In this document: piece after piece, positions 3,082 through 37,934 of the stretch
How positions within the stretch are numbered: the stretch's first letter is position 1
How the letters are laid out: every line of letters starts with the position of its first letter
Source of the DNA: a virus
DNA length: 64,000 nucleotides
Reading direction: 5' to 3' (one strand)
IMG/VR virus record: IMGVR_UViG_3300037247_000353
Location: 1-64,000 of that record
Notes under the pieces: generated by a model
Databases searched by the model: none
Told to the model about the DNA's origin: nothing
What the model saw: the letters and a program-made list of their open reading frames with translations, nothing else
Translations under genes and position numbers: made by a program

Positions 3082-4614
3082 ATAGTAGGATACACACGTC
3101 AATCGGCAGGCTCTATAACAGATGGAGCAACAATTCAAGCCTCTCATTTTAACAATGAGTACAACCAACTTGAGTCTGCTTTTAATGCAACAACGGGCCA
3201 TGACCATACTGGTGGGGCTGGACTAGGGCCAACCATAGCACTATCAGGAGGCTCTATTGGAGTTACTGGTACGTTAGCTGTTGCTAATGGTGGTATTGGT
3301 GTTACCACATTAACAGATGGGGGTATTCTATTAGGCTCTGGAACTAATGCTGTTACTGCTATGGGGGTTTTAGCAGATGGATCAATTGTTGTTGGTGATG
3401 GTGCTACAGACCCTGTAGCAATAACAGCATTCACTTCTTCTACTGGACTTTTAATTCATGAACGTGGGGGTATTGAAGCTAATATTTCTGCTATTACAAC
3501 AGATCAATTCCTTGGGGGTACATCGGCAGGCGTTATAGGAATAAGAACTGCTGCACAAGTTACCACAAGCCTTGCACTAACTATTGGTACAAACACACAA
3601 GCGTTTGGTGCTAATTTAGATCAGATTGCAGCACTAGTACCAACAGCAGATAATTTTATAGTGGGTAATGGATCAGCATGGACTCTTGAAACTCCTGCTA
3701 ATGTACGAACTAGTCTAGGCTTAGTTATTGGAACTGATGTTCAAGCTGAAGATCCTGTATTGACTGATCTTGCAGCATTGTCAGCAGTTGCAGATAATGA
3801 ATTTATTGTTGGAACTGGTGCTGGTGTGTACGCCCATGAAAGTGGTACTACTGTTAGAACAAGCCTTGGATTAGGAACAGGGGATACACCTGAATTCATC
3901 AAACTTGGTGTTGGCGGAACTCTGACAGACGGCACTTTTCACGTCATCACGGCAAGCGCGGGCCCAGTGGCGGCAGATGCTGCTGGGGACGATTTAGTCA
4001 TCGAGAATAATACAGATGGCGGGATTACTATTCTTACGCCGAATAATGCAACGGCAGCTATATATTTTGGTGATCCACAAAGTGCCACTAGTGGCGGTGT
4101 ACAATACCAGCATTCAACGAACACTTTACAGCTTCGTGCTAAGGGGGCAGTTCAGGTAACAATTGATAGCAACGGCGTTACGATGCCGAACCAACCTGCC
4201 TTCCTGGCATTCAACAGTGCAACGGATGGGAATGTAACAGGCAACGGTGCCTCAACAACGATTGATTTTGATACGGAAGTCTACGATCAAAACGCGGATT
4301 TCGCGGCTGATACATTTACCATGCCAGCGCCAGGAGGTAAATGCTTACTTACAACCAGCGTTCAGATCAGCGGACTAGTCAGCGCGACGAATATAGCCTT
4401 ATCAATCGTTACATCCAATAGGAGCTATCGAACAGATTTTTCAAGTCCGCCAGACACGCTCTTTACAGTCCAAATGAGTTGTGTGGCCGACATGGATGCG
4501 TCGGATACGGCGACTGTGGTGGCCATTGTCTCCGGCATGGCGGGGGATACAGCCGATGTTCTCGGCAATGCGACCACCTTGTTAACCCATTTCTCAGGTT
4601 GTTTACTTGCATAG
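3082..4614 (+). CDS. Tail fibre protein with probable ATA start
   Basis: The first ATG in frame is at 3361, but the frame is open from 3079. The upstream codons encode a typical fibre N-terminus (GYTRQSAGSITDGATIQASH, then FNNEYNQLESAFN and TGHDHTGG). No ATG, GTG or TTG precedes this; the codon placed after a good ribosome site (AGGAGA at 3070-3075) is ATA at 3082, giving 510 residues. Repeats of the type LADGSIVVGDG and VPTADNFIVGNGSAW fill residues 70-270. From about residue 275 the gene becomes GC-rich and ends in a globular beta domain (about 4190-4614), probably the receptor-binding tip. Confidence 0.7.
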   Translation: MVGYTRQSAGSITDGATIQASHFNNEYNQLESAFNATTGHDHTGGAGLGPTIALSGGSIGVTGTLAVANGGIGVTTLTDGGILLGSGTNAVTAMGVLADGSIVVGDGATDPVAITAFTSSTGLLIHERGGIEANISAITTDQFLGGTSAGVIGIRTAAQVTTSLALTIGTNTQAFGANLDQIAALVPTADNFIVGNGSAWTLETPANVRTSLGLVIGTDVQAEDPVLTDLAALSAVADNEFIVGTGAGVYAHESGTTVRTSLGLGTGDTPEFIKLGVGGTLTDGTFHVITASAGPVAADAAGDDLVIENNTDGGITILTPNNATAAIYFGDPQSATSGGVQYQHSTNTLQLRAKGAVQVTIDSNGVTMPNQPAFLAFNSATDGNVTGNGASTTIDFDTEVYDQNADFAADTFTMPAPGGKCLLTTSVQISGLVSATNIALSIVTSNRSYRTDFSSPPDTLFTVQMSCVADMDASDTATVVAIVSGMAGDTADVLGNATTLLTHFSGCLLA

Positions 4615-26428: not shown

Positions 26429-26771
26429 CAGCATATTTTGTCTCTTTATTTATTAAATCTAATGTCCAACCTAGGGGATAATTACCAATCATAGGATAGC
26501 CCTCTAAGCGTGTTGAACGAAGATTTCTACTATATTTGATAACATCAGTGTTATTACCTTTACTTTTTAAAGAAATAGTTACCATATTAATTATATTAGT
26601 AATTGCTCTTAAGTCTTTAGCTTTTGCTACATATGTTGTCGCTCTTTTTATACTTATTATACTATAAGGATGTGTGCTACCTGTTAAATAATCATAAATA
26701 TAAAAAAGAGTACTGGACTCATGATTAACAGCACATACAAATTCTCCAATAGAAAATCTTGGTTTACTCAT
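26421..26771 (-). CDS. Hypothetical protein (116 aa)
   Basis: N-terminus FSIGEFVCAVNHESSTLFYI resembles the small barrel-like F-x-I-G-D/E-x-V opening also found at 26771 and 30931; the rest is basic. Overlaps the next start by 1 nt. Function unknown. Confidence 0.55.
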   Translation of the reverse strand: MSKPRFSIGEFVCAVNHESSTLFYIYDYLTGSTHPYSIISIKRATTYVAKAKDLRAITNIINMVTISLKSKGNNTDVIKYSRNLRSTRLEGYPMIGNYPLGWTLDLINKETKYADV

Positions 26772-27010
26772 TATGATCTCTCTATTAATCTATGTTTTAC
26801 ATATTCTAAAATATTTTCTGGGTCTGGATATATCTCTAATTCTTTTTTCTCAAATAGAAAATCCCTATCAGTAGTTTTATCTGTAAACCCACTATCTAAT
26901 TTTACTCTATAATACATTCCTCCTTTAGTTATAGTTCCAATCTTATAAAATGTACAAGAAGGGCTGCATCCATTTGGTAATATTTTAACTCTATCTCCCA
27001 CATGAAACAT
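26771..27010 (-). CDS. Small barrel-like protein (79 aa)
   Basis: MFHVGDRVKILPNGCSPSC opening followed by TITKGGMYYRVKLDSG is the pattern of KOW/SH3-like small beta barrels; then an acidic helix. Follows the glutamyl-tRNA synthetase gene by 3 nt. Possible RNA or protein-binding adaptor. Confidence 0.55.
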   Translation of the reverse strand: MFHVGDRVKILPNGCSPSCTFYKIGTITKGGMYYRVKLDSGFTDKTTDRDFLFEKKELEIYPDPENILEYVKHRLIERS

Positions 27011-27013
27011 AAT

Positions 27014-27886
27014 CTAAATCCTATTATATTTTTTATTAAACCATTTTAGTTTTTGCTCATCAACATTGGCTTGACTATTTCTCATTCGTCCTTGAGTTAA
27101 GAACATTTCTACTGCTCTTTCTTTTGAGATTAAGCTATTAGCTTTGTTATCCTCATGAGGGCTCCAGCCTAATCTTAAAAGAAAGTTTAACAATGCTTCT
27201 GGATTGTAATCAACATATTGAGAAAGAGAAAAACTACTATCACGTTTACTTAATTTCTTCCCGTCCTTGAAAAGTAACCCAACATGAGCAAATTTAGGTA
27301 GCTTTTGCGCTCTGTCTGGAAAACATTTATTTAGAGCATTCCAAATAGCAATTTGTTTCGGAGTATTTGAGATATGGTCTGTCCCTCTAATGATATAGTT
27401 AATAGTGTGATCCCAATCATCCACCACACTAGCCAACTGATAAGTAGGACTGTTATTAGACACATCCCCCCGTAAGAGAATAAGCCTCTTATCAATTTGC
27501 TCATAATTTGTTTCAGTGATGGGAATATCTCCTGCAATTTCATCATACCATGCCTCCGGGAGTTCAGGATTGTGAAGAGCTATCGCACCATTAGGTAATC
27601 TTATTGCTACTTTTTTGTCTAACAAGATTAATGCAAATCCCGTGTATAAATCTATGTATTCACTCTGACAAAACTGTTTATCAAAGTCTAGCCCAAACCA
27701 ACCTATCACAGTAAAGATTGCTTTAGATACAGCCTCCTGATTACGTCTTGCATCCGTATCATCCACCCTAACTAAAAATTTACCACCACTAGCCCTTGCA
27801 GCCAACCAATTAAAATAGGCTGTTCTCATAGTACCTAAATGCATTTCACCAGTGGGTGATGGTGCTATTCTAGTGTTATATACCAT
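27014..27886 (-). CDS. Glutamyl-tRNA synthetase catalytic core, no anticodon-binding domain
   Basis: 290 residues against ~470 in bacterial GltX. The Rossmann core is intact: APSPTGEMHLGT (HIGH motif, 8-19), VRVDDTD (39-45), IIRGTDHISNTPKQI (165-179), DGKKLSKRD (KMSKS, 208-216) and the stem-contact region to KWFNKKYNRI at the C-terminus, exactly where the alpha-helical anticodon-binding domain normally begins. KLSKR and the Glu-type RGTDH segment argue for a GluRS rather than GluQ-RS. Expected reaction: ATP-dependent glutamylation of a tRNA acceptor end without reading the anticodon. Starts by TAATG coupling. A tRNA-Glu-like RNA is encoded 8.4 kb upstream in the same transcription direction. 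Confidence 0.85.
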   Translation of the reverse strand: MVYNTRIAPSPTGEMHLGTMRTAYFNWLAARASGGKFLVRVDDTDARRNQEAVSKAIFTVIGWFGLDFDKQFCQSEYIDLYTGFALILLDKKVAIRLPNGAIALHNPELPEAWYDEIAGDIPITETNYEQIDKRLILLRGDVSNNSPTYQLASVVDDWDHTINYIIRGTDHISNTPKQIAIWNALNKCFPDRAQKLPKFAHVGLLFKDGKKLSKRDSSFSLSQYVDYNPEALLNFLLRLGWSPHEDNKANSLISKERAVEMFLTQGRMRNSQANVDEQKLKWFNKKYNRI

Positions 27887-28101
27887 TATTCAACCTTTTT
27901 ATTTAATAGCACAACTTTCACTAAATTATGCATATCTTGTATAATTTCTATATAGTTCATCCTTTGAAGGAATGATAATTCATCACACTTTACTCTCCAT
28001 CCAGTAATTAATTCATTTTCCTTATATATTTTTCCTTGTATATAATCCTTTTGATATTGCACAGAAAGCGTAAATGTCCTAAGCACAATAAAATATTTCA
28101 T
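27886..28101 (-). CDS. Small hypothetical protein (71 aa)
   Basis: Coupled to both neighbours (ATGA and TAATG). Its layout, an N-terminal strand block, then G-x-x-Y/W, then SFLQRMNYIEIIQDM and a hydrophobic tail, resembles the next upstream protein (SLIQRIKYLIRDGWV), suggesting a tandem paralogous pair. No known family. Confidence 0.6.
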   Translation of the reverse strand: MKYFIVLRTFTLSVQYQKDYIQGKIYKENELITGWRVKCDELSFLQRMNYIEIIQDMHNLVKVVLLNKKVE

Positions 28102-28349
28102 TTGATTGACTCATTAAATAATACACACTTTATTAAATCTTCTATATTTTTAGGCTCAGTTATTGTAACCCACCCATCTCTAATAAGATACTTTATTCGC
28201 TGTATTAAAGACATTCCCGGACAAGTAGTATTTAAATCCACAAATTCTAATGCGGATTGACAATATATAGTCCCTGGTTGAAACCACACATAAGATCTAT
28301 CACTTAATTTTTTTAAATAGAATGCGCGTCTAGGGGTAAAAAATAACAT
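28098..28349 (-). CDS. Small hypothetical protein (83 aa)
   Basis: Begins MLFFTPRRAFYLKKLSDRSY and contains SLIQRIKYLIRDGWVTI, similar to SFLQRMNYIEI of its downstream neighbour. Directly follows the polymerase. No known family. Confidence 0.6.
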   Translation of the reverse strand: MLFFTPRRAFYLKKLSDRSYVWFQPGTIYCQSALEFVDLNTTCPGMSLIQRIKYLIRDGWVTITEPKNIEDLIKCVLFNESIK

Positions 28350-30487
28350 CAGCCAATCTCTTCTTTAACAACAGTTTCTAAATTTAATAAATTTGTTCCG
28401 CGCTTTATTTCAATCATCAGGGGGGTATCAAGCTCTATATCGTACCTTCTTTTTAACGCCGCAGGAATCTGTCTATGAGATTCAAGAATTAAATCTCGTA
28501 CAAGATCTAGTTCATCTGGATGTGTATCAATTACTCCATCATCATGGGTTGTAAGACATAACAAAGATTTTGGTTTATATTCTTGCCAAAGATACCATAA
28601 TTCAATTAACCATACTGGTACTATATCTGCTGTGGCAAACCCTTGAACTGGATAATTCTTAATTTGTGTTGCGTTAGTTGATGTTCCCCATTTAGTACGT
28701 TTAGCATTTGGAAAAGCATACTCTCTACCAGATGGCAACACAATCTTTTTAGTTGTAATTGCTTCAGTTTGTAATCTATCATGCCACCTAGCAATATCTT
28801 CATGCTTCTCTAAAAAGAATTTATAATACGCCCTTTCATTGTCAGTACCAGTAGATCCGCCGTATAAAGGCTTGAAGGTATGGGGTTTAGCATCTTGCCT
28901 AGAGCATTCAATAATATCTGCTGTAACTTGATGTGCATCAACTTTATTTTTAATATCTTCACGTCCTGCTTTATCATTAGCTAAAAATACCGCTGTTCGA
29001 TACTCTAATTGACCTTGATCTGCATCTGTTAATACACCCCCATCAAACCGCGATATAAACACTTTTCTAATGGGAAATGTATGTACTCTTGGTTGGTTTT
29101 GAAGATTAGGACTCCTACTCGTTAAGCGTGCAGTTGCTGCTACGCATTGTAAGTATTGTTGATGTAATATATCATCTTCACCAACAGCTTTTTCAATACC
29201 AGCTACAAAAGTGTTTAAATACGTCTCAATTGCATTTAATCGTGTCACCCCAACAAAAAATTCCTTTTCCGGCCCTAAAGAACTTTGAGCTAAATATTCT
29301 AACGTTTCTTTACTTGTTCTAAACCCACCCGCTGTTGTTTCATATGATCCACGAGGAATCTTTTTAAATCCTGCAATCTGTGCAAGTTGTTGATAAATAA
29401 TTCCAACTCCATTACAATCTCTACATGATGTAAGCTTTTTGGCAGCTTCACCAGTTTTATTAATTTTTCTGGATTTTCCTGCGCCCTGGCAAGCAGGGCA
29501 TTGGTTCGCAGTAGTTCTGTATATAGGGCATGTGTATCTTTTAACATAGTGTACAAACTCCTTTTCCTTCATTCGGGTTCGGTATTTCTGCCGAACTGTG
29601 GTGCCTGTTTGTTCTATCCCAATATTAAATATTCTCTTCCAAACAGGTTTATCAGTTACCTTACGACTGTAAATTAATTGAGAAAGCTGTTCAGGACTGT
29701 CTAAATTAATTGGTGTATCTCCCATAACATTAGCTACCATTTTTCCTAGTTTATTTTTCAATACTATTTGTTCTTTTAAATACTCTTTCTTAACTTTTCT
29801 AAGGGCCTTTTTATCTATTTTAATTCCATTACCTTCCATATCAATTAATACTTTTGTGTACTCATTCATCATTTTTATAGTTGGAATTAATCCTTTATTT
29901 TCTTTCTTTTTAAGTTCTTCTTGTTGCTCTAACCAAAGACATAAAAGAGCGTCAATATCACTTATATTATATTCAGAAAGAATTTCAAATGGAACATTTT
30001 CCATACTAATATTTTTATCTAGGTATTCTTGTATCAAATCAGCCCTTTTAGTTGCACTTAAATTATACTGTCTACCAAGTGCTTCTAATGATATGGCCTT
30101 TTTTATTCCTCTATTTAAAACATATTGTCGTATCATAGTACAATCAATATCACAAACATATTTAAACCCACTTTCCCACAACCACGCCAAATCAAACTTC
30201 GTATTGTGACAGACTAATAAAGATGTATTATCAAGAATTTTTTGAATTTCTTCTTTACTTTGTAATTGCTCTTTAACAAAAACAGGCTGTAATTCATGAT
30301 AAAATAATCGAAATTGAATTTTTATCTCAGTTTGAGACATTTTTAAATAGTATTTTAGAATATTACTTAATGAAAGCGATAGATATGCAACACTTACAAG
30401 TTTATTTTTAGGATTATACGGACTCGGATCTTTTTTCCCATTAATAACTTGATAGGTTGTTTCACAATCTAAGAATGTTATGGTCAT
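28349..30487 (-). CDS. polA: DNA polymerase, family A, with zinc-binding insertion
   Basis: 712 residues. 3'-5' exonuclease motifs: LDCETTY (D-x-E, ~6-12), HNTKFDLAWLW and YNISDIDAL. Polymerase motifs: A as TDADQGQLEYR (~480), B as KPLYGG with downstream ERAYY, and C as THDDGVID (~660). No 5'-3' exonuclease domain, as in T7-type polymerases. An insertion at roughly residues 325-380 carries DnaJ-style Cys repeats, CPACQGAG and CRDCNGVG, predicted to bind zinc. Overlaps the Fic gene by 4 nt. Confidence 0.93.
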   Translation of the reverse strand: MTITFLDCETTYQVINGKKDPSPYNPKNKLVSVAYLSLSLSNILKYYLKMSQTEIKIQFRLFYHELQPVFVKEQLQSKEEIQKILDNTSLLVCHNTKFDLAWLWESGFKYVCDIDCTMIRQYVLNRGIKKAISLEALGRQYNLSATKRADLIQEYLDKNISMENVPFEILSEYNISDIDALLCLWLEQQEELKKKENKGLIPTIKMMNEYTKVLIDMEGNGIKIDKKALRKVKKEYLKEQIVLKNKLGKMVANVMGDTPINLDSPEQLSQLIYSRKVTDKPVWKRIFNIGIEQTGTTVRQKYRTRMKEKEFVHYVKRYTCPIYRTTANQCPACQGAGKSRKINKTGEAAKKLTSCRDCNGVGIIYQQLAQIAGFKKIPRGSYETTAGGFRTSKETLEYLAQSSLGPEKEFFVGVTRLNAIETYLNTFVAGIEKAVGEDDILHQQYLQCVAATARLTSRSPNLQNQPRVHTFPIRKVFISRFDGGVLTDADQGQLEYRTAVFLANDKAGREDIKNKVDAHQVTADIIECSRQDAKPHTFKPLYGGSTGTDNERAYYKFFLEKHEDIARWHDRLQTEAITTKKIVLPSGREYAFPNAKRTKWGTSTNATQIKNYPVQGFATADIVPVWLIELWYLWQEYKPKSLLCLTTHDDGVIDTHPDELDLVRDLILESHRQIPAALKRRYDIELDTPLMIEIKRGTNLLNLETVVKEEIG

Positions 30488-30927
30488 TGATTTGCTTCTA
30501 AAGTTTGATAGTAGAAACTATGTAAAAACCCGAGTGGGGCTTTACCACCAATTTGCCAAAGCCATAAGGCCCTACCAGAGCGCCCGTTGCCATCCGTGAA
30601 TGGATGAAGTTGCTCGTAAGCTAAATGGGTTTGGTAAGAGTTTGAAGAGCGATTTGGATGAATACTATGTAATAAAACTTCTAATTGTTTTTCAATTTGT
30701 GGGCCGCCCGCCGGTGGGTAGAAGCTTCCTACGCGAACATCAAGCCCTGAACGGGCTCTAAGTATTGCTCCTGGTTGTATAATTGATACAAAGGCTTCAA
30801 GGTCTCTTACTGTAATCTCTTTATTCGCTAAAAGAACCTCATGCGCTGCTATTTCTTCTTGGGTTGGATTTCTATTTATCCCTTCAATTCTATTACTTTC
30901 TGTTATAAAATCTTTAAGAGTCCACAT
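30484..30927 (-). CDS. Fic-family protein (AMPylase-type)
   Basis: 147 residues, a compact Fic core. The catalytic motif HPFTDGNGRSGR (~111-122) is complete: His base, Asp for metal, GNGR for phosphates. An N-terminal SNRIEG (11-16) matches the inhibitory motif (S/T)-x-x-x-E-(G/N), so it may be auto-inhibited. Predicted to transfer AMP or another nucleotide moiety to a target hydroxyl, possibly a host protein. Lies between polymerase and primase genes. Confidence 0.85.
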   Translation of the reverse strand: MWTLKDFITESNRIEGINRNPTQEEIAAHEVLLANKEITVRDLEAFVSIIQPGAILRARSGLDVRVGSFYPPAGGPQIEKQLEVLLHSIHPNRSSNSYQTHLAYEQLHPFTDGNGRSGRALWLWQIGGKAPLGFLHSFYYQTLEANQ

Positions 30928-30930
30928 AAT

Positions 30931-31248
30931 CTACTCCATAGTTGGTAGAGTTGAAGTTATAGTCTTAAACTGCTCAACAGTCATTCTTTTATTCCATTCT
31001 AACATTGCAACAATAAATCTACCAAGAGAAAATTCTTTTTCAAGAAGATCTGCATTAATAGTCCATGAGCGCCCATCATGTAATTTTGTGCAACACATTA
31101 ATCGATATCCAGGGTTTGTGTGAATCTCAATAATTTTAACAGGCATAAAAGGAAAATAATGACAGTACAAACAAAAATGCCCTTTATAGCTCCCATTACT
31201 CCAATTACCACGAAACACAAAATAGGCCGTATCCCCTATATTAAACAT
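30931..31248 (-). CDS. Hypothetical protein (105 aa), barrel-like N-terminus
   Basis: Begins MFNIGDTAYFVFRG, the same F-x-I-G-D opening as small barrel proteins at 26.4-27.0 kb, followed by Cys/Tyr-rich HFCLYCHYFPF. Start at ATG 31248, with the reductase-type CGGAG site upstream. Function unknown. Confidence 0.6.
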   Translation of the reverse strand: MFNIGDTAYFVFRGNWSNGSYKGHFCLYCHYFPFMPVKIIEIHTNPGYRLMCCTKLHDGRSWTINADLLEKEFSLGRFIVAMLEWNKRMTVEQFKTITSTLPTME

Positions 31249-32065
31249 CAAATAATCTCCGTATCTCTTCTGAATTATAGCACTTTAAATCTTCTGTTAA
31301 AAGATGAATAGTTGTTGGCCTATAATATTGCAATTCTTTCTGCATACTAAGTGCTAATTTAGAGGCATCTTTATCTAATGCAATAATGAATCTCTCATAT
31401 TGTAAAAACTCTTTTAAATAATTAGCCTGTAAAAAAGTCCCTAATAAGGCTGCACTATCACAATAGGCACTGGCTGCACAAGCAGAACAACAATCTTCAA
31501 CAATAATTAAAGTTTTATATATTGGATCTTGTTTATGCCTATTCGTTGGACAAATAAATGCCTGAGAAGATTTTCCGTAACGTCTCCATTTTGGAGCGCC
31601 TCCTTTTGTAAGCCTTTTCCCAACAGCATCAATAGGTACCCCAGTAGATAAATCCCAAATCATAAAAACAATTCTATCATCGTATGGATCATAGCGAATA
31701 TCTGCCAAATCCTCCCTGTAGGCATCCCAACAGTTATTATCATGCAAAAATTTATTAATTCTTTCTCGTCCAACTGTTTCTGGTATAAAAATAAATCTAT
31801 CTAATGAGAAACTACTGTTAGATTTCTTATTTACAACAACTTCAAACTCTCTTTTTAAACTTTCTGTGCTAATATCTGTTTGTCTTCTACCCTTAAGTTT
31901 ACAAGAAGCTTTAAAACAATAAAATAATATTACGGTACCTAAATTAGTTACACTAAAAGTATTTTTACCCCCACAACTTGGACAATCCATACGCCTACTT
32001 GTTTGAGGCTCTGGAATATCTTTAAGAAGATGTTGTAATTTTATTTCTGATTCTATTAAGTTCAT
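31241..32065 (-). CDS. DNA primase (zinc ribbon plus TOPRIM)
   Basis: About 274 residues from ATG 32065; ATG 32095 would add ten. N-terminal zinc ribbon CPSCGGKN ... CFKASCK (~28-57) and a TOPRIM core with IVEDCCSACAAS (catalytic Glu region) and FIIALDKDAS (D-x-D, ~230) match the T7 gp4A primase half. Makes primers; its helicase partner is separate (24610-25821). Overlaps the peptidase gene by about 44 nt. Confidence 0.85.
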   Translation of the reverse strand: MNLIESEIKLQHLLKDIPEPQTSRRMDCPSCGGKNTFSVTNLGTVILFYCFKASCKLKGRRQTDISTESLKREFEVVVNKKSNSSFSLDRFIFIPETVGRERINKFLHDNNCWDAYREDLADIRYDPYDDRIVFMIWDLSTGVPIDAVGKRLTKGGAPKWRRYGKSSQAFICPTNRHKQDPIYKTLIIVEDCCSACAASAYCDSAALLGTFLQANYLKEFLQYERFIIALDKDASKLALSMQKELQYYRPTTIHLLTEDLKCYNSEEIRRLFDV

Positions 32066-33665
32066 TTTGTACATCCGGGTATGTGTCATAACCAAGATAA
32101 AACCAATTATCTTTAAAGAATTTAATACTTTGTATAATTATGGCTGAAATATCATCAGAATCAAAATTAGCTTCCTCTACTAGTGTTGTATTAACAACAA
32201 GAATATTTGCTAATATCTCCTTTATTGTTGAAAATAGCTGTCCCATGCTGAAAGAAGTATCATCATATTTAGAGAAATCCTCCCATGCCCATTTTAATAT
32301 TTCTGCGTAATCAGAAACTTCAATTGTGTATAGCGCCGAATGATCGTTATAAATTTGAAAGTTCCTATTAGTTAACATAATCAATGTGTTATATAATTCT
32401 TTTTGTTTGCTCCCAAGATCACCAGTGTCTGTTTTAGACTCAGGGATTACAGCAGGAAGGGTTTTATCTTTAGACTGCTGTTTTAATAGGGCATTTTCCT
32501 TTAACAAATCTAAAATAGCTTGTTGTAATTCAAAGGCAGATTTTGTTTGTTCAATATATTGTCTAATTAGCCGCCGCATACCTACCTCACTACATGAGTT
32601 AATAAGACCCTTAGAAAGCACCCAAGGAGGAAGTTTATTGGAGTCAGTATTATAATTTATATCTTTATAAGACGTGTATTTTCCAATAGATGTCACATTG
32701 TCTCTAGGCCAGCCTGTACCATACACAGGAGGGGCTTTATATAATGATCTTTCAGTTGGAAGATCCTCCCAATCAACTTTTATTAGGGCAGGTGTTAATA
32801 TAGTAGTAAGCCAAGCAGTATTTAAGCATTCTTCAGAGCTATGTTGACAAAAGTATCCAACAGATAGATTAGTACACTCTGAAATCAAGCCAGTATAATT
32901 TGCAGTATCTGTAAACGTTCCTATTGCCCCTTTAAACCTCCTATTTATTTTATTTGGAGTTATAATTAAGTCCGTTAATTGATCTGCAAACGCATTTACG
33001 AATTTGTGTGAGCAACATACACCCCCCCTTTGTCTATCTATAATATCTAAATAGTCCATTCTATCAAATGCAATAGCTCTTTCTATGCCAGCTACAAGCC
33101 CAGGCTTTCTGTTTCTAATATCGGATGAACCAACCCCGCCAACCTCTTCACCAACATGAAAAATATAAAGTCCAGGTATCTTGGCCCGTATTAAATTAAT
33201 TAAGATAAAAATTCCTGCTTTATCATCAGCACCTAAAGTGGTAGGAGTATACAAATAACGCCCATCTTTATATTCGTTTGTTATACCCCCCCAAACAAAA
33301 CTCTTTTTTGCTCTCTCACTCTCTTGAGCTATAAATAAATCTAATTTTTTAGGTTTACCTTCTAGATCAGTAAAATATCCTTTCCTAAACACCATATCTA
33401 TATGGCAAGAAAACATTGTTGTATGGTTTCCTCCGACTTTAACTATAAGATTGCCTACCCCATCTTTATACATTTTTTGCCCTTTTGGGAGGTATTTTTT
33501 TATGGTGGCTGTTATTGCTTCATATAACGGATGAGGAGCTATGCAGGATAACAGATCATACAGCATAAAGGGTATTATTTTTTCTTTTCTGATTAGTTTA
33601 CAGACTTTTGTATCGGCTTTAGGTAAAAAGCTCTGTTTATTGCGCCAAGGTGTCTTGCTACCCAT
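32022..33665 (-). CDS. M20/M42-like metallopeptidase with C-terminal extension
   Basis: 547 residues. The N-terminal ~290 residues carry a di-zinc aminopeptidase set: FSCHIDMVF (H-x-D, ~81), LGADDKAGI (bridging Asp, ~142), HVGEEVGGVGSSD (catalytic/metal Glu pair, ~165), AFDRMDYLD and a late QHSSEE (~270) for the last His. The ~250-residue C-terminal part is helical and unknown. A cytoplasmic peptidase has no obvious place in a replication operon; peptide recycling or removal of an amino-acid modification are possible. Start by TAATG coupling. Confidence 0.75.
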   Translation of the reverse strand: MGSKTPWRNKQSFLPKADTKVCKLIRKEKIIPFMLYDLLSCIAPHPLYEAITATIKKYLPKGQKMYKDGVGNLIVKVGGNHTTMFSCHIDMVFRKGYFTDLEGKPKKLDLFIAQESERAKKSFVWGGITNEYKDGRYLYTPTTLGADDKAGIFILINLIRAKIPGLYIFHVGEEVGGVGSSDIRNRKPGLVAGIERAIAFDRMDYLDIIDRQRGGVCCSHKFVNAFADQLTDLIITPNKINRRFKGAIGTFTDTANYTGLISECTNLSVGYFCQHSSEECLNTAWLTTILTPALIKVDWEDLPTERSLYKAPPVYGTGWPRDNVTSIGKYTSYKDINYNTDSNKLPPWVLSKGLINSCSEVGMRRLIRQYIEQTKSAFELQQAILDLLKENALLKQQSKDKTLPAVIPESKTDTGDLGSKQKELYNTLIMLTNRNFQIYNDHSALYTIEVSDYAEILKWAWEDFSKYDDTSFSMGQLFSTIKEILANILVVNTTLVEEANFDSDDISAIIIQSIKFFKDNWFYLGYDTYPDVQNELNRIRNKITTSS

Positions 33666-35266
33666 TAGGTAACTCCCGATTCTGTAGAACGAAGTGTGCT
33701 ATTACTTGAAAGTAATCCAAGAGAATATAATTTTTCACATAGTTCTTGTTTCATAGAATAAGATTTACCCATATACGCAACCCTATAGCCCGATGTAGAA
33801 AATTCATTAGGTTCTGTTTTAATCGAATTTATTGTTTTATTATCTATAGATACATAATCATGAATAACAAGAACCCCACCATATTTCATACAGCTATGCT
33901 TATTAGTATAAATGAGTGTTCTATTAAAATAATCTAGATAACAAGTATTCAAAAGTCGTAATTGTAATTGCCCATCAGAGTTACGAGCATAAACATAACC
34001 ATGATCATGGGCGCATTTCTTGCTACAAAATGTTTTACCCCCCTCCCAAGAACTATGACGCCTTTCTTTGCAAATAATACCACAGTTATAACATCTAATA
34101 GTTTTTATATGTGATTCTCTAATAAATCCTCCAGTAGAACCTGTTGGAATATTAGCTAAAGAAGATTCGGAACAGTCAAAGGTTAAAATAAATTCTTTAC
34201 TCTTAGTGTCAAAGTCTCCATGAATATTTGTAGATATATTATCCATATAGGGCATGGGTAGCAAGTGTTCTTTCAAAGTTTTACTATAAAGCCCCGGAAC
34301 CCTAATTTGTATAGGTTTAGAAAACCTATCATTTAGTTTGTTGTATCCAAGATCGTTAAGTATATTTATGAATTTTGAAGCATAAAAATTGTTTATGGTA
34401 AACACACGTCCGTATTTCCAAATACCAGGGCTTGTTTGGTAAATACAAGTTCGTGCTACAACTTGTTTATTTTTAACGCAATAAACCCCTTTAATATCAG
34501 GATGATAGGCTAATAAAGACATAGGGTGGTGTCCATGCTTTAATATTTCGCTCCAAGCCGTTATTTTATCATCAGTTAATGTCATACAGGTGCCAACCCC
34601 GTTGTTCCTAAACATATCCACATAGTCTTTGGGTTTCTCTGCATATATTAATTCAAGTGGTCTAGTTAATTCGATATAAGAATCAGCCAAAGCATTTATT
34701 TGATCATTTTTAAGATATTTTCTAATGTTTGTATACCTAGTAAGTGCTCGTATTACCGAGATTTCTTCATATCTTTTAATTTTTTTCCATGCTCTTGAAA
34801 ACGGACTCCAACTATTGGGCTTATCATACCTAATTTTATTAAATGTTTTTAGACCATCAAAACAAATGATCCAACAAATATTTTTTAAATCCGATAAATT
34901 AATTGTATCCAATACTAAATTTGGAAAAACACAAACATTACCAGGAGTCTTACTAGCAATTATTATAGGGGAATGTTCAAAAATCTTATCCATTTGTAGG
35001 CTCATATTAAGTCTATTATTTTGTTCACCAATTTCCAAATCCTCTTGAAATTTTAGATAGCGGATATGCAAAAACCTAGTTAATCTGGCAGCCGCGTTAA
35101 ACACTGGATCATTTTTTAAAATCTTTTGAGTTTGTAATAATTCTTTATATTGTATTTGTAATTCCTTTGACACTAGAGGTAAATAATCCTTTTCAATTAA
35201 TTTTAACTCCTTTGAAAGACCAGCAAAATTAATCCTACAGTGATCTCTATTAGCTACTTGTGGCAT
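33665..35266 (-). CDS. Unknown protein, paralogue of 35269, with zinc finger
   Basis: 533 residues. Central core (~195-345) contains GTCMTL, AYHPDIKGVYCVKNKQVVAR, WKYGRVFTINNFYASKFI and LPMPYMDN, matching in order blocks of the neighbouring 334-residue protein (SCMSPK, YTQGVYLKVANRGVARA, YYGIIYAESGFYRSLFL, CPLPYHD). After the core is a zinc finger C-Y-N-C ... F-C-S-K-K-C (~390-420). The core looks like a known but unassigned phage/plasmid family with a C-M-S motif. No function assigned. Confidence 0.6.
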   Translation of the reverse strand: MPQVANRDHCRINFAGLSKELKLIEKDYLPLVSKELQIQYKELLQTQKILKNDPVFNAAARLTRFLHIRYLKFQEDLEIGEQNNRLNMSLQMDKIFEHSPIIIASKTPGNVCVFPNLVLDTINLSDLKNICWIICFDGLKTFNKIRYDKPNSWSPFSRAWKKIKRYEEISVIRALTRYTNIRKYLKNDQINALADSYIELTRPLELIYAEKPKDYVDMFRNNGVGTCMTLTDDKITAWSEILKHGHHPMSLLAYHPDIKGVYCVKNKQVVARTCIYQTSPGIWKYGRVFTINNFYASKFINILNDLGYNKLNDRFSKPIQIRVPGLYSKTLKEHLLPMPYMDNISTNIHGDFDTKSKEFILTFDCSESSLANIPTGSTGGFIRESHIKTIRCYNCGIICKERRHSSWEGGKTFCSKKCAHDHGYVYARNSDGQLQLRLLNTCYLDYFNRTLIYTNKHSCMKYGGVLVIHDYVSIDNKTINSIKTEPNEFSTSGYRVAYMGKSYSMKQELCEKLYSLGLLSSNSTLRSTESGVT

Positions 35267-35268
35267 TG

Positions 35269-36273
35269 CTATCTCCGTGTCAATGTTTCGTGTGCAGGTT
35301 GCATATCTGAATCGAAGTATCCGCGATAATAATATGAACTACCTAGCAGCTTAGCTGATTTTGGTAAAAGCTTTTTTGGACCAAAATAAAACATATTTTC
35401 TTTTTTATTAAAATGACAATAATATCCTCGGCTTAAACAGTCGTGGTAAGGCAAAGGACATATTGGTTTTTCCAATATTTGTATTGCTGGAACCTTAAAA
35501 ACACTATTTATATTGGGGCGATTATCGTAGCAACTAGCGGTAAAACCCTTATTTTTCAAAATCGCCAAAAATAAAGATCTATAAAAGCCGGATTCTGCAT
35601 AAATAATTCCATAATATTTTTTAAATTTATGTGTTGGATTTTTTCTAATTAAGATTGCCCTAGCAACCCCTCTATTTGCAACTTTCAAATACACACCCTG
35701 CGTATATGGACAGTGAGAATACCACATAGACGGCCATAAATTATGTTCTTTATACAAATAGTTCCGTAACCAAGTATTATATGATGTACTTTTAGGAGAC
35801 ATACAACTAAGTGCATGAACCTCATACAAAGCAATATGATCTTCAGGAGTCTCACAAATTACCATCTTTGCAGAATTTTTTAATATCTTATGCATTATTT
35901 TTTGGGAGTAGTCTCGTATTTCATTATCCTTAAGTCCACTTTTATTTAACCTTAAATATTTAATCAGAAAAGAAGTTAGTTTTACAGTCTCATTAACTTT
36001 TAAATAGTTAGTTTCTGGAACTGTTTTTAGTTTTCTTTTTAGCCCAATTAAAGTAGGTTTAAATGTGTCTTCATCTATTTTAATCTTACGTTTAACTAGT
36101 TTTGTATTAAATTGAATATGCTTATACACACGCACACGACCCTCCCCGTTCAGAGAGGCTAATGGCAATTTTATGGGAATGGAATCTGGGAATTCTTTGC
36201 GAATAATACGAAATATAACATATGCTTCAGGGCACGTACTGTCCAATAACGTTTCAATAGATTTGGAAAACAT
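35269..36273 (-). CDS. Unknown protein, paralogue of 33665
   Basis: 334 residues; AGGAGC precedes ATG 36273. Shares the core described for the adjacent gene (SCMSPK ~155, GVYLKVANRGVARAIL ~195) but lacks the zinc finger. It is the first protein gene after the tRNA-like RNA, 26 nt beyond its 3' CCA, so both are on one transcript. No function assigned. Confidence 0.6.
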   Translation of the reverse strand: MFSKSIETLLDSTCPEAYVIFRIIRKEFPDSIPIKLPLASLNGEGRVRVYKHIQFNTKLVKRKIKIDEDTFKPTLIGLKRKLKTVPETNYLKVNETVKLTSFLIKYLRLNKSGLKDNEIRDYSQKIMHKILKNSAKMVICETPEDHIALYEVHALSCMSPKSTSYNTWLRNYLYKEHNLWPSMWYSHCPYTQGVYLKVANRGVARAILIRKNPTHKFKKYYGIIYAESGFYRSLFLAILKNKGFTASCYDNRPNINSVFKVPAIQILEKPICPLPYHDCLSRGYYCHFNKKENMFYFGPKKLLPKSAKLLGSSYYYRGYFDSDMQPAHETLTRR

Positions 36274-36298
36274 TTAAAGCTCCTACACATTTGATAGG

Positions 36299-36393
36299 TG
36301 GCGTCCCAGGCTGGATTTGAACCAACGTTTCACTCTCTAGTTATCCACTAGTGACTCAAGAGAGAGCGTCCTAGACCGCTAGACGACAGGGAC
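36299..36393 (-). tRNA. tRNA-Glu-like RNA with abnormal anticodon arm
   Basis: 95 nt on the minus strand. Acceptor GTCCCTG pairs with CTGGGAC (one T-T mismatch), then discriminator G and encoded CCA. D arm GTCT/GGAC with loop AGCGGTCTA and linker TC are nearly those of bacterial tRNA-Glu; T arm is GTTGG-TTCAAAT-CCAGC. The anticodon stem CTCTC/GAGAG encloses 24 nt instead of 7, and no T33 plus anticodon is found in register. Part of that insert (CTAGT-GGATA-ACTAG) can form its own hairpin. Either a non-decoding tRNA-like glutamate acceptor, a tRNA with an insertion needing removal, or a decaying gene. Confidence 0.7.
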
Positions 36394-36397
36394 ATAC

Positions 36398-36415
36398 GGG
36401 GGAATCTCTTCCCCC
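36398..36415. promoter_or_regulatory. Hairpin just 5' of the tRNA-like RNA
   Basis: GGGGGAA-TCTC-TTCCCCC gives a perfect 7-bp stem, 4 nt before the tRNA-like 5' end on the minus strand. No U-run follows, so processing signal or barrier is likelier than termination. Confidence 0.5.
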
Positions 36416-36419
36416 GATT

Positions 36420-36441
36420 AACCACTAAGAATTTAGCGGTT
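36420..36441 (-). repeat. Palindromic element, CTAA/TTAG family (copy 1)
   Basis: On the minus strand AACCGCTAA-N4-TTAGTGGTT, 9 bp with one G-U pair. The wobble is only possible in minus-strand RNA, suggesting an RNA hairpin. Sits 5 nt past the stop of the 36446 gene. Related hairpins are at 40.4, 41.5, 45.1, 47.2 and 63.4 kb. Confidence 0.5.
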
Positions 36442-36445
36442 TATG

Positions 36446-36883
36446 TCACGCTTGCCCTGAGAGCTTGTAGGAGCCAACAACAGTAGCCTTGCCTCGCCCT
36501 GGTCCTACCGCGAAATCACGCGACCGGAGATTGAGGGAAACACAGTCACCATCACGATTTGTGCCAAGGTGGGCATAGACATTATTACCCTCGGCAATCG
36601 TGAACAGCATATCATCTGCAACCTTTGAACGGGCCATCTTCTTATGCTGACTTGGGGGAAGGAAGTTCGCCTTAATGTCGTAGGAGCCCACGACAATTAC
36701 CTTCTTACCAGCCCCTGAGACTGATGTGAAGGCCAGATTACCATTCGCCATATTGATGCTGGCGAACTTTCCGTTTTGACCAATAGCACCGTAACGTTTT
36801 TGGCCAATACGACCGCTGGCCATGCTGATACCAAAAATTGCACCAACAGGGACACTACGACGAGTAGTTTTCTTATTCGGCAT
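36446..36883 (-). CDS. Hypothetical GC-rich basic protein (145 aa)
   Basis: Starts MPNKKTTRRSVPVGAIFG; Gly/Ser/Ala-rich with repeated beta units (VVGSYDIKANF and VVGSYKLSGQA; FASINMANGNLAFTSV). Much richer in G+C than the surrounding operon, as are 38691 and 45783, perhaps because these are highly expressed early genes. Preceded by a long structured leader. No family recognised. Confidence 0.65.
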   Translation of the reverse strand: MPNKKTTRRSVPVGAIFGISMASGRIGQKRYGAIGQNGKFASINMANGNLAFTSVSGAGKKVIVVGSYDIKANFLPPSQHKKMARSKVADDMLFTIAEGNNVYAHLGTNRDGDCVSLNLRSRDFAVGPGRGKATVVGSYKLSGQA

Positions 36884-36929
36884 TTACAATCCTATCTGGA
36901 TTTGGGTTTCAACATTATAGGACAGTAAC

Positions 36930-37116
36930 CTTACACCAGGGCGTCATGGCGACCCGATGCGACTTCGCTGCCCTTCACCAAAGTCAAGGTGTTCGATGAC
37001 GAGACCTGTTTTGTCACCTACAGGGAGGCGGACCCATGTATCTCGCCTTTAGGGGTGGTAGCCTTATTCCTAGGATGGCATCTGCCGAGCCAAAACTACC
37101 ACGCAGAACGCTTCTT
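36930..37116 (-). ncRNA. Multi-hairpin structured RNA region
   Basis: About 185 nt, GC-rich against AT-rich flanks, without a convincing gene. Four successive stems: GTGGTAG/CTACCAC (37055-37102, 7 bp), CGAGA/TCTCG enclosing CCTGT/ACAGG (37000-37045), CACC/GGTG (36977-36991) and AGGGC/GCCCT (36938-36974) with inner GCG/CGC. A promoter-like pair lies just upstream. Could be a stand-alone RNA or the 5' leader of the 36446 gene. Two short frames of 36 and 28 codons exist (sharing GTGA) but have no clear ribosome site for the first. Confidence 0.4.
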
Positions 37117-37122
37117 TCATCC

Positions 37123-37151
37123 ATTATCTAAATAATACCATAATGAATCAA
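37123..37151 (-). promoter_or_regulatory. Sigma-70-type promoter candidate
   Basis: Minus strand TTGATT (37146-37151), 17 nt, GATAAT (37123-37128). Transcription would begin about 37116, right before the first stem of the structured RNA region. Confidence 0.45.
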
Positions 37152-37358
37152 TTAAGTCAAATCAGATATAATAGTATTTATAATAGTTTGAATGTTTGTT
37201 ACTTCTTTACACCTAAACCCAGCACCTATGCTTATTGTAGAACCAATAATCATAGATATATGTTGTTCATGTATTATTTTAGAAACTATATCATTATCAT
37301 CCACTATATACATATTCCCTTTATGGCACCTGCAACCACATATAATTAATTTACTCAT
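37152..37358 (-). CDS. Small hypothetical protein (68 aa)
   Basis: MSKLIICGCRCHKGNMYIV then IIGSTISIGAGFRCKEV, a Rossmann-like/SLOG-like rhythm. Start overlaps the deaminase stop as ATGA. Function not assigned. Confidence 0.6.
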   Translation of the reverse strand: MSKLIICGCRCHKGNMYIVDDNDIVSKIIHEQHISMIIGSTISIGAGFRCKEVTNIQTIINTIISDLT

Positions 37359-37771
37359 AATTTATCGTACCCATCTTTTGTAGTGTAGTACACATTTTCA
37401 ATTTTAGCAAGTTTGATTAATTCTTGGCATATTTTGCAAGGTCTAGCCAAAGCAATTTCATCTTGTTTAGTTATCCTTAAAGTAAATAAACTAAGTCCTT
37501 CACAATTATCTAACCCCTGAAATAAAATTACAGCCTGCTCTGCATGTAGATAGGGATAAGGAGTAAATTTCACTAATGCAGGGTGAGTTTTATAGCTATT
37601 ATACCTTGATATAATTCCTACTGGGCCATTAACAAGCACAGCACCTAACCTAAATGTGCTGCCATCTCTACCACCTACACCTGGGCCATCCAAGGCTATC
37701 AATCTAGCTATATCGAACATACGTTTGTGCCGGGCTATTTCTATACCCGATATGAAATCTTTAAGTTGCAT
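37355..37771 (-). CDS. Cytidine/dCMP deaminase-like protein
   Basis: 138 residues from ATG 37771 (the longer frame to 37801 is inside another gene). Zinc signature HAEQAV (~80-85: His ligand and catalytic Glu) and PCKIC (~110-114: two Cys ligands) mark a cytidine/deoxycytidylate deaminase fold. Probably converts dCMP to dUMP for thymidylate supply or deaminates a related base; no thymidylate synthase is visible. Confidence 0.7.
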   Translation of the reverse strand: MQLKDFISGIEIARHKRMFDIARLIALDGPGVGGRDGSTFRLGAVLVNGPVGIISRYNSYKTHPALVKFTPYPYLHAEQAVILFQGLDNCEGLSLFTLRITKQDEIALARPCKICQELIKLAKIENVYYTTKDGYDKL

Positions 37772-37934
37772 TATTTTTTCCAGCGATTCTAATGGCATCA
37801 TTAATCATATCGCGAACTTGATGAAGCTCTTTATACGTCAAATATATTTCATATCTAGGTATATCATCAGGATTACCTTGAAGACAATAAAAATTTGTTG
37901 ATTTATCGAAAGATAAGGTTATCAGACATTTCAT
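37761..37934 (-). CDS. Small hypothetical protein (57 aa)
   Basis: MKCLITLSFDKSTNFYCLQG, then a basic helix ELHQVRDMINDAIRIAG. GGAG overlaps the upstream stop; its end overlaps the deaminase start by 11 nt. No family recognised. Confidence 0.65.
   Translation of the reverse strand: MKCLITLSFDKSTNFYCLQGNPDDIPRYEIYLTYKELHQVRDMINDAIRIAGKNNAT

Follow-up and report, generated by a model that had tools for sequence, protein, structure and literature searches.

The analyzed stretch (hereafter the window) covers 64,000 nucleotides of a 68,416-bp virus record, IMGVR_UViG_3300037247_000353. Its DNA polymerase (with a DnaJ-type zinc insert), helicase, SSB-like, terminase and portal-like proteins are most similar to those of Pelagibacter phage HTVC033P, Roseobacter phages CRP, and Puniceispirillum phage HMO-2011, i.e., a podovirus of the HMO-2011/HTVC033P type. 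The window encodes a short glutamyl-tRNA synthetase (mini-GluRS) and, on the same strand but 8.4 kb apart, a tRNA-Glu-like RNA without a usable anticodon (Table 1). The genes for two paralogous proteins with a predicted GNAT-fold domain, a peptidase, a primase, a Fic-like protein, and the DNA polymerase lie between them.

Table 1. Features of the window discussed in the text (positions refer to the 64,000-nt stretch).
Feature	Coordinates	Strand	Size	Description
mini-GluRS	27014..27886	-	290 aa	Class I catalytic domain with HIGH/KMSKS-type motifs, no anticodon-binding domain, shortened insert
tRNA-Glu-like RNA	36299..36393	-	95 nt	No anticodon loop, CCA encoded
Predicted GNAT-fold protein	33665..35266	-	533 aa	Predicted GNAT-fold domain at residues about 202-313, candidate glutamyl transferase
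Paralogue of the 533-aa protein	35269..36273	-	334 aa	ORF starts about 25 nt after the 3' end of the RNA
Metallopeptidase	32022..33665	-	547 aa	M28/M42-like
Small protein	36446..36883	-	145 aa	Two similar halves, possible substrate or accessory protein
Cytidine-deaminase-superfamily protein	37355..37801	-		Link to the module uncertain
Non-coding stretch	36884-37150	-	about 260 nt	Richer in G+C than its surroundings, upstream of the small protein
Hairpin	36395-36430	-		Strong hairpin (CGGGGGAA-GAGA-TTCCCCCG) ending a few bases before the 5' end of the RNA, possible processing signal
Small-protein families	26771-27010 and 27886-28349	-	70-110 aa	Near the GluRS
GluRS stop and next start	27008-27016	-		Next small gene in the same frame, two codons after the TAG stop

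The sequence-only reading had described a synthetase that stops where the anticodon-binding domain (ABD) should begin and an RNA with the arms of tRNA-Glu but a 24-nt anticodon loop, and our analysis confirmed both. The mini-GluRS matches PF00749 (E 3.6e-51) and no other Pfam domain, and has the HLGT and KLSKR signatures (HxG at residues 16-18, KLSKR at 211-215). The RNA has 6 of 7 acceptor pairs (one T6-T67 mismatch), complete D (4/4) and T (5/5) stems, and G73 followed by CCA. The Rfam tRNA model gives it 36.8 bits (cut-off 29) when the stretch is scanned alone, and it is the only RF00005 match in the whole record (E 1.1e-7). However, default ARAGORN and a scan of the whole window against Rfam with fast filters both miss it because of the anticodon arm. 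A 24-nt loop over a 5-bp stem is a correct description of this arm, although RNAfold extends the stem to 7 bp and places a small hairpin inside the loop. We found no match to a sigma-70-type promoter or to a terminator around the RNA. The non-coding stretch upstream of the small protein has no Rfam match and does not fold better than shuffled sequences (z -0.67). The small gene that follows the GluRS stop codon would add a 79-aa tail upon readthrough, but this arrangement is probably due to chance. Families of such small proteins, many with a VGD-type start and a short C-terminal helix-like end, and several in tandem copies, also lie near the GluRS in two related phages (L154 and L187, see below).

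Conserved absence of the anticodon domain had been put forward in advance as a test of the reading, and we searched viral sequences for relatives of the enzyme. A scan with a two-sequence alignment returned 49 viral loci. Together with records of a phage collection, these fall into full-length GluRSs of about 440-516 aa and mini-GluRSs of 250-325 aa that end at the same point, while three loci (L157, L169, and L188) are broken or cut. All 22 sampled mini members match PF00749 and none matches the ABD (PF19269 Anticodon_2), whereas the 14 full-length controls match both. In a tree including 24 cellular GluRSs and one GluQRS, the mini members form one clade (100/99, 100% of bootstrap trees) with no cellular member among those sampled, on a long stem of 0.74 changes per column. 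The best cellular matches to the alignment are 38% identical. All 22 minis have D where all 14 controls have E in the RIxDTD motif, and their insert between the two halves of the catalytic domain is shortened. GluQRS (YadB) is also a GluRS paralogue of similar length without ABD. Yet, the mini-GluRS scores 138 bits with the GluQRS model TIGR03838, below its cut-off of 276.7, against 249.5 bits for gltX_bact, and the single GluQRS in the tree falls outside the mini clade. The first 43 codons differ from those of a 5-kb contig (L001) by 22 synonymous and 6 replacement codons, as expected of a working gene. Upstream of this GluRS start, 86% identical to the window's over 43 residues, L001 has two tRNAs with anticodon UUA (3878-3953 and 4375-4448), which would read the stop codon UAA and whose partner is unknown. 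Hence, the enzyme belongs to a phage-specific synthetase branch and is not a single truncated gene.

We then searched related phages for the RNA. Three relatives share the replication module of the window (L142, L154, and L187) and a fourth shares its structural genes (L168). Anticodon-free Glu-type RNAs were found in four of these five phages, including the window: one in the window, one in L187, four in tandem in L154, and one in L168. We had expected an RNA in the small gap before the predicted GNAT gene in all relatives, but it is there only in the window, and elsewhere the RNAs lie at other places of the cluster. All seven encode CCA, and their acceptor (95.9% of cells paired), D (100%), and T (100%) stems are kept. 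In contrast, the anticodon arm differs in every RNA: a 22-24-nt loop in the window, an 8-bp stem in L187, an apparent GCAA tetraloop in L168, an apparent CUUG tetraloop in one L154 copy (L154a), and other arms. None has the 5-bp stem and 7-nt loop, with a YUC anticodon, of tRNA-Glu. Covariance of the RNA had also been named beforehand as a check: 98.2% of the core cells are paired, 10 of 16 core pairs show changes on both sides, and none of 500 shuffles does as well. The possibility that these are decaying tRNA genes, suggested by the acceptor mismatch in the window and by two unpaired cells out of 112, is thus very unlikely given the compensatory changes, the CCA kept in 7/7, and the four copies in L154. 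A precursor with a small intron is equally unlikely. ARAGORN with introns allowed fits a 15-nt intron, but the resulting anticodon is UGA (Ser) instead of Glu, the arms of L168 and L154a are short hairpins with nothing to remove, and the arms differ in every RNA.

Published identity elements of bacterial tRNA-Glu are the anticodon loop bases U34, U35, C36, and A37, together with U11-A24, U13-G22:A46, and the loss of residue 47 (PMC9976931). The RNAs keep U11-A24 (7/7) and U13-G22 (6/7), both major elements, and have lost those of the anticodon, while the enzyme has lost the domain that reads it. The D-stem pair 12-23 is C-G in six RNAs and G-C in L168, with U11-A24 unchanged. The states of A46 and residue 47 were not settled, since the variable region cannot be delimited without a normal anticodon stem. 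In the window record the odd RNA is the only tRNA found, and no tRNA other than the odd Glu-type ones was found in the records of L154, L187, and L168.

Not all the evidence points to a strict pair. The sequence-only reading had stated that its interpretation would fail if homologous phages had the GluRS without such an RNA and with a normal tRNA-Glu, and this is partly the case. Jumbo phages of the same mini-GluRS clade have ordinary tRNA-Glu genes, and large tRNA-rich phages with a mini-GluRS mostly have tRNA-Glu genes with UUC or CUC anticodons. One 635-kb phage with a mini-GluRS also has a tRNA-Glu-like gene with an enlarged D loop and apparently a UUC anticodon (LR745206.1:421470-421561). 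L142, whose GluRS is the most similar full-length relative (56%), has only a tRNA-Tyr, and an unfiltered covariance search of its 62-kb record found no Glu-type RNA, although this record may be incomplete. Several of the records are fragments. These observations leave room for a role in translation, where the mini-GluRS charges host or phage tRNA-Glu without reading the anticodon and the odd RNA is unrelated to it. We consider this unlikely, since the odd RNA is the only tRNA of the window record, the relatives' tRNA content is as given above, and the Glu identity elements and covariation are kept. We infer that the ancestral partner was probably a normal tRNA-Glu and that only the podovirus branch shed the anticodon. 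In the tree, the GluRS of L154 does not group with those of the window, L142, L187, and L168, and the association may therefore have formed or been exchanged more than once.

We also considered that odd anticodon arms might be a trait of Glu-type RNAs only. A control scan with another D-arm type found at least 68 odd arms, at least 58 of them with good acceptor and T stems, and this argument was dropped. Such tRNA-like genes, with intact acceptor and T stems, are frequent in viral contigs, also in non-Glu classes; most lack an encoded CCA and default finders miss many of them. Among 17 records of other large phages with odd Glu-type RNAs, none has a PF00749 protein. Oddness alone is thus not evidence for the function proposed here, and the case rests on the same RNA type recurring with the same synthetase and the same predicted GNAT family. 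The frequency of odd arms in several classes, and the four copies in L154, are compatible with the RNA being charged or bound but acting as a decoy or sink, e.g., for host GluRS, EF-Tu, or a host tRNA-targeting toxin or defence effector that reads the acceptor, D, or T arms. This is also unlikely in our view, since it explains neither a dedicated synthetase without ABD nor the co-occurring predicted GNAT proteins, and an anticodon-free RNA cannot be a decoy for anticodon nucleases.

The 533-aa and 334-aa proteins next to the RNA, which the sequence-only reading had named as candidate users of the glutamyl group together with the peptidase, have one relative each in L142, L154, and L187. The 533-aa protein used as a single query found no relatives in viral contigs or phages, and an alignment was needed. 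A scan of viral contigs with the common domain returned only those three contigs, and the phage collection, which includes 12 HMO-2011-type isolates, has none. HTVC033P gp12 is not a relative of the family. These proteins co-occur with the mini-GluRS in 4/4 testable genomes and were not found elsewhere. Co-occurrence was not tested across metagenomes as a whole. The model of the whole 533-aa protein is poor (pLDDT 55.7), and only the part resembling GNAT enzymes was used. Modelled alone, this domain reaches a pLDDT of 73. All 50 rows of a second structural aligner (VIA) are GNAT proteins with Z from 6.5 to 8.7, and the 50 best Foldseek matches include FemX six times, MprF twice, and leucyl/phenylalanyl-tRNA-protein transferase twice. 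However, the Foldseek matches are weak (E 2e-3 at best) and mostly acyl-CoA enzymes, which leaves the fold a prediction on which the comparison does not decide, and a shared fold does not prove the donor. The acyl-CoA P-loop ([RQ]xxGx[GA]) is absent from the region between strand 4 and helix 3 in 5/5 proteins.

GNAT-fold enzymes such as FemABX, L/F-transferase, MprF, and VlmA-DhpH take an aminoacyl group from tRNA outside the ribosome (PMC12945691). The proteins described here have no sequence family match to them, and one predicted GNAT domain was located in a larger protein; the tandem GNAT domains and tRNA-binding helix of FemABX were not examined, as only one domain was modelled with fair confidence. 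These transferases use cellular aminoacyl-tRNA, whereas here a private synthetase and RNA travel along. We found no Pfam match to the lantibiotic dehydratase-type domain of PEARL (LanB-like peptide aminoacyl-tRNA ligase) in the two proteins or their relatives; the predicted fold points elsewhere, but this does not settle whether they are related to PEARL. tmRNA is another anticodon-free tRNA-like RNA expected to be aminoacylated, but the RNAs described here lack an mRNA-like part and are of Glu type instead of Ala type. As for the other neighbours, the predicted catalytic residues of the peptidase are conserved in 4/4 relatives, but its relatives are common in phages without any GluRS, which makes its part in the module uncertain. 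The 145-aa protein is conserved upstream of the predicted GNAT gene in all four genomes (blastp E 1e-7 for the best pair, weaker for the others). The cytidine-deaminase-superfamily protein is also found near the mini-GluRS in L142 and L187.

Taken together, the interpretation of the pair as a glutamyl donor used outside decoding is partly supported, and it is the best-supported reading of our data. In this view, the mini-GluRS charges the phage's own RNA with glutamate, recognising the acceptor and D arms instead of the anticodon. The Glu-RNA, unable to read a codon, would be used as a donor by the predicted GNAT-fold proteins, which would transfer Glu to a phage or host acceptor (a protein or small molecule), and the peptidase may trim or remove that residue. 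The sequences show the parts, their conservation, the loss of the anticodon in the RNA and of its reader in the enzyme, and the co-occurrence. Charging, transfer, the acceptor, and the role of the peptidase are inferred, as neither charging nor transfer was assayed. We regard charging of the RNA by the enzyme as likely, and the full chain including the predicted GNAT user as about as likely as not. The same even odds apply to the possibility that a virus has taken a whole synthetase-tRNA pair out of translation, enzyme and RNA having lost the anticodon check together, to serve only as a private glutamyl donor for a viral transferase that labels phage or host molecules. Literature searches, restricted to open-licence papers, found no description of such a pair, in which both halves of the anticodon check are missing together in a lineage.

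A dedicated aminoacyl donor made of a private synthetase and an anticodon-free tRNA would show that the coding and the charging functions of tRNA can be fully separated in nature. It would name a new route by which phages could modify proteins or metabolites, and would give a small RNA/enzyme pair that works without an anticodon. Since the anticodon-free RNAs are missed by default tRNA finders, similar systems may be common and unseen.
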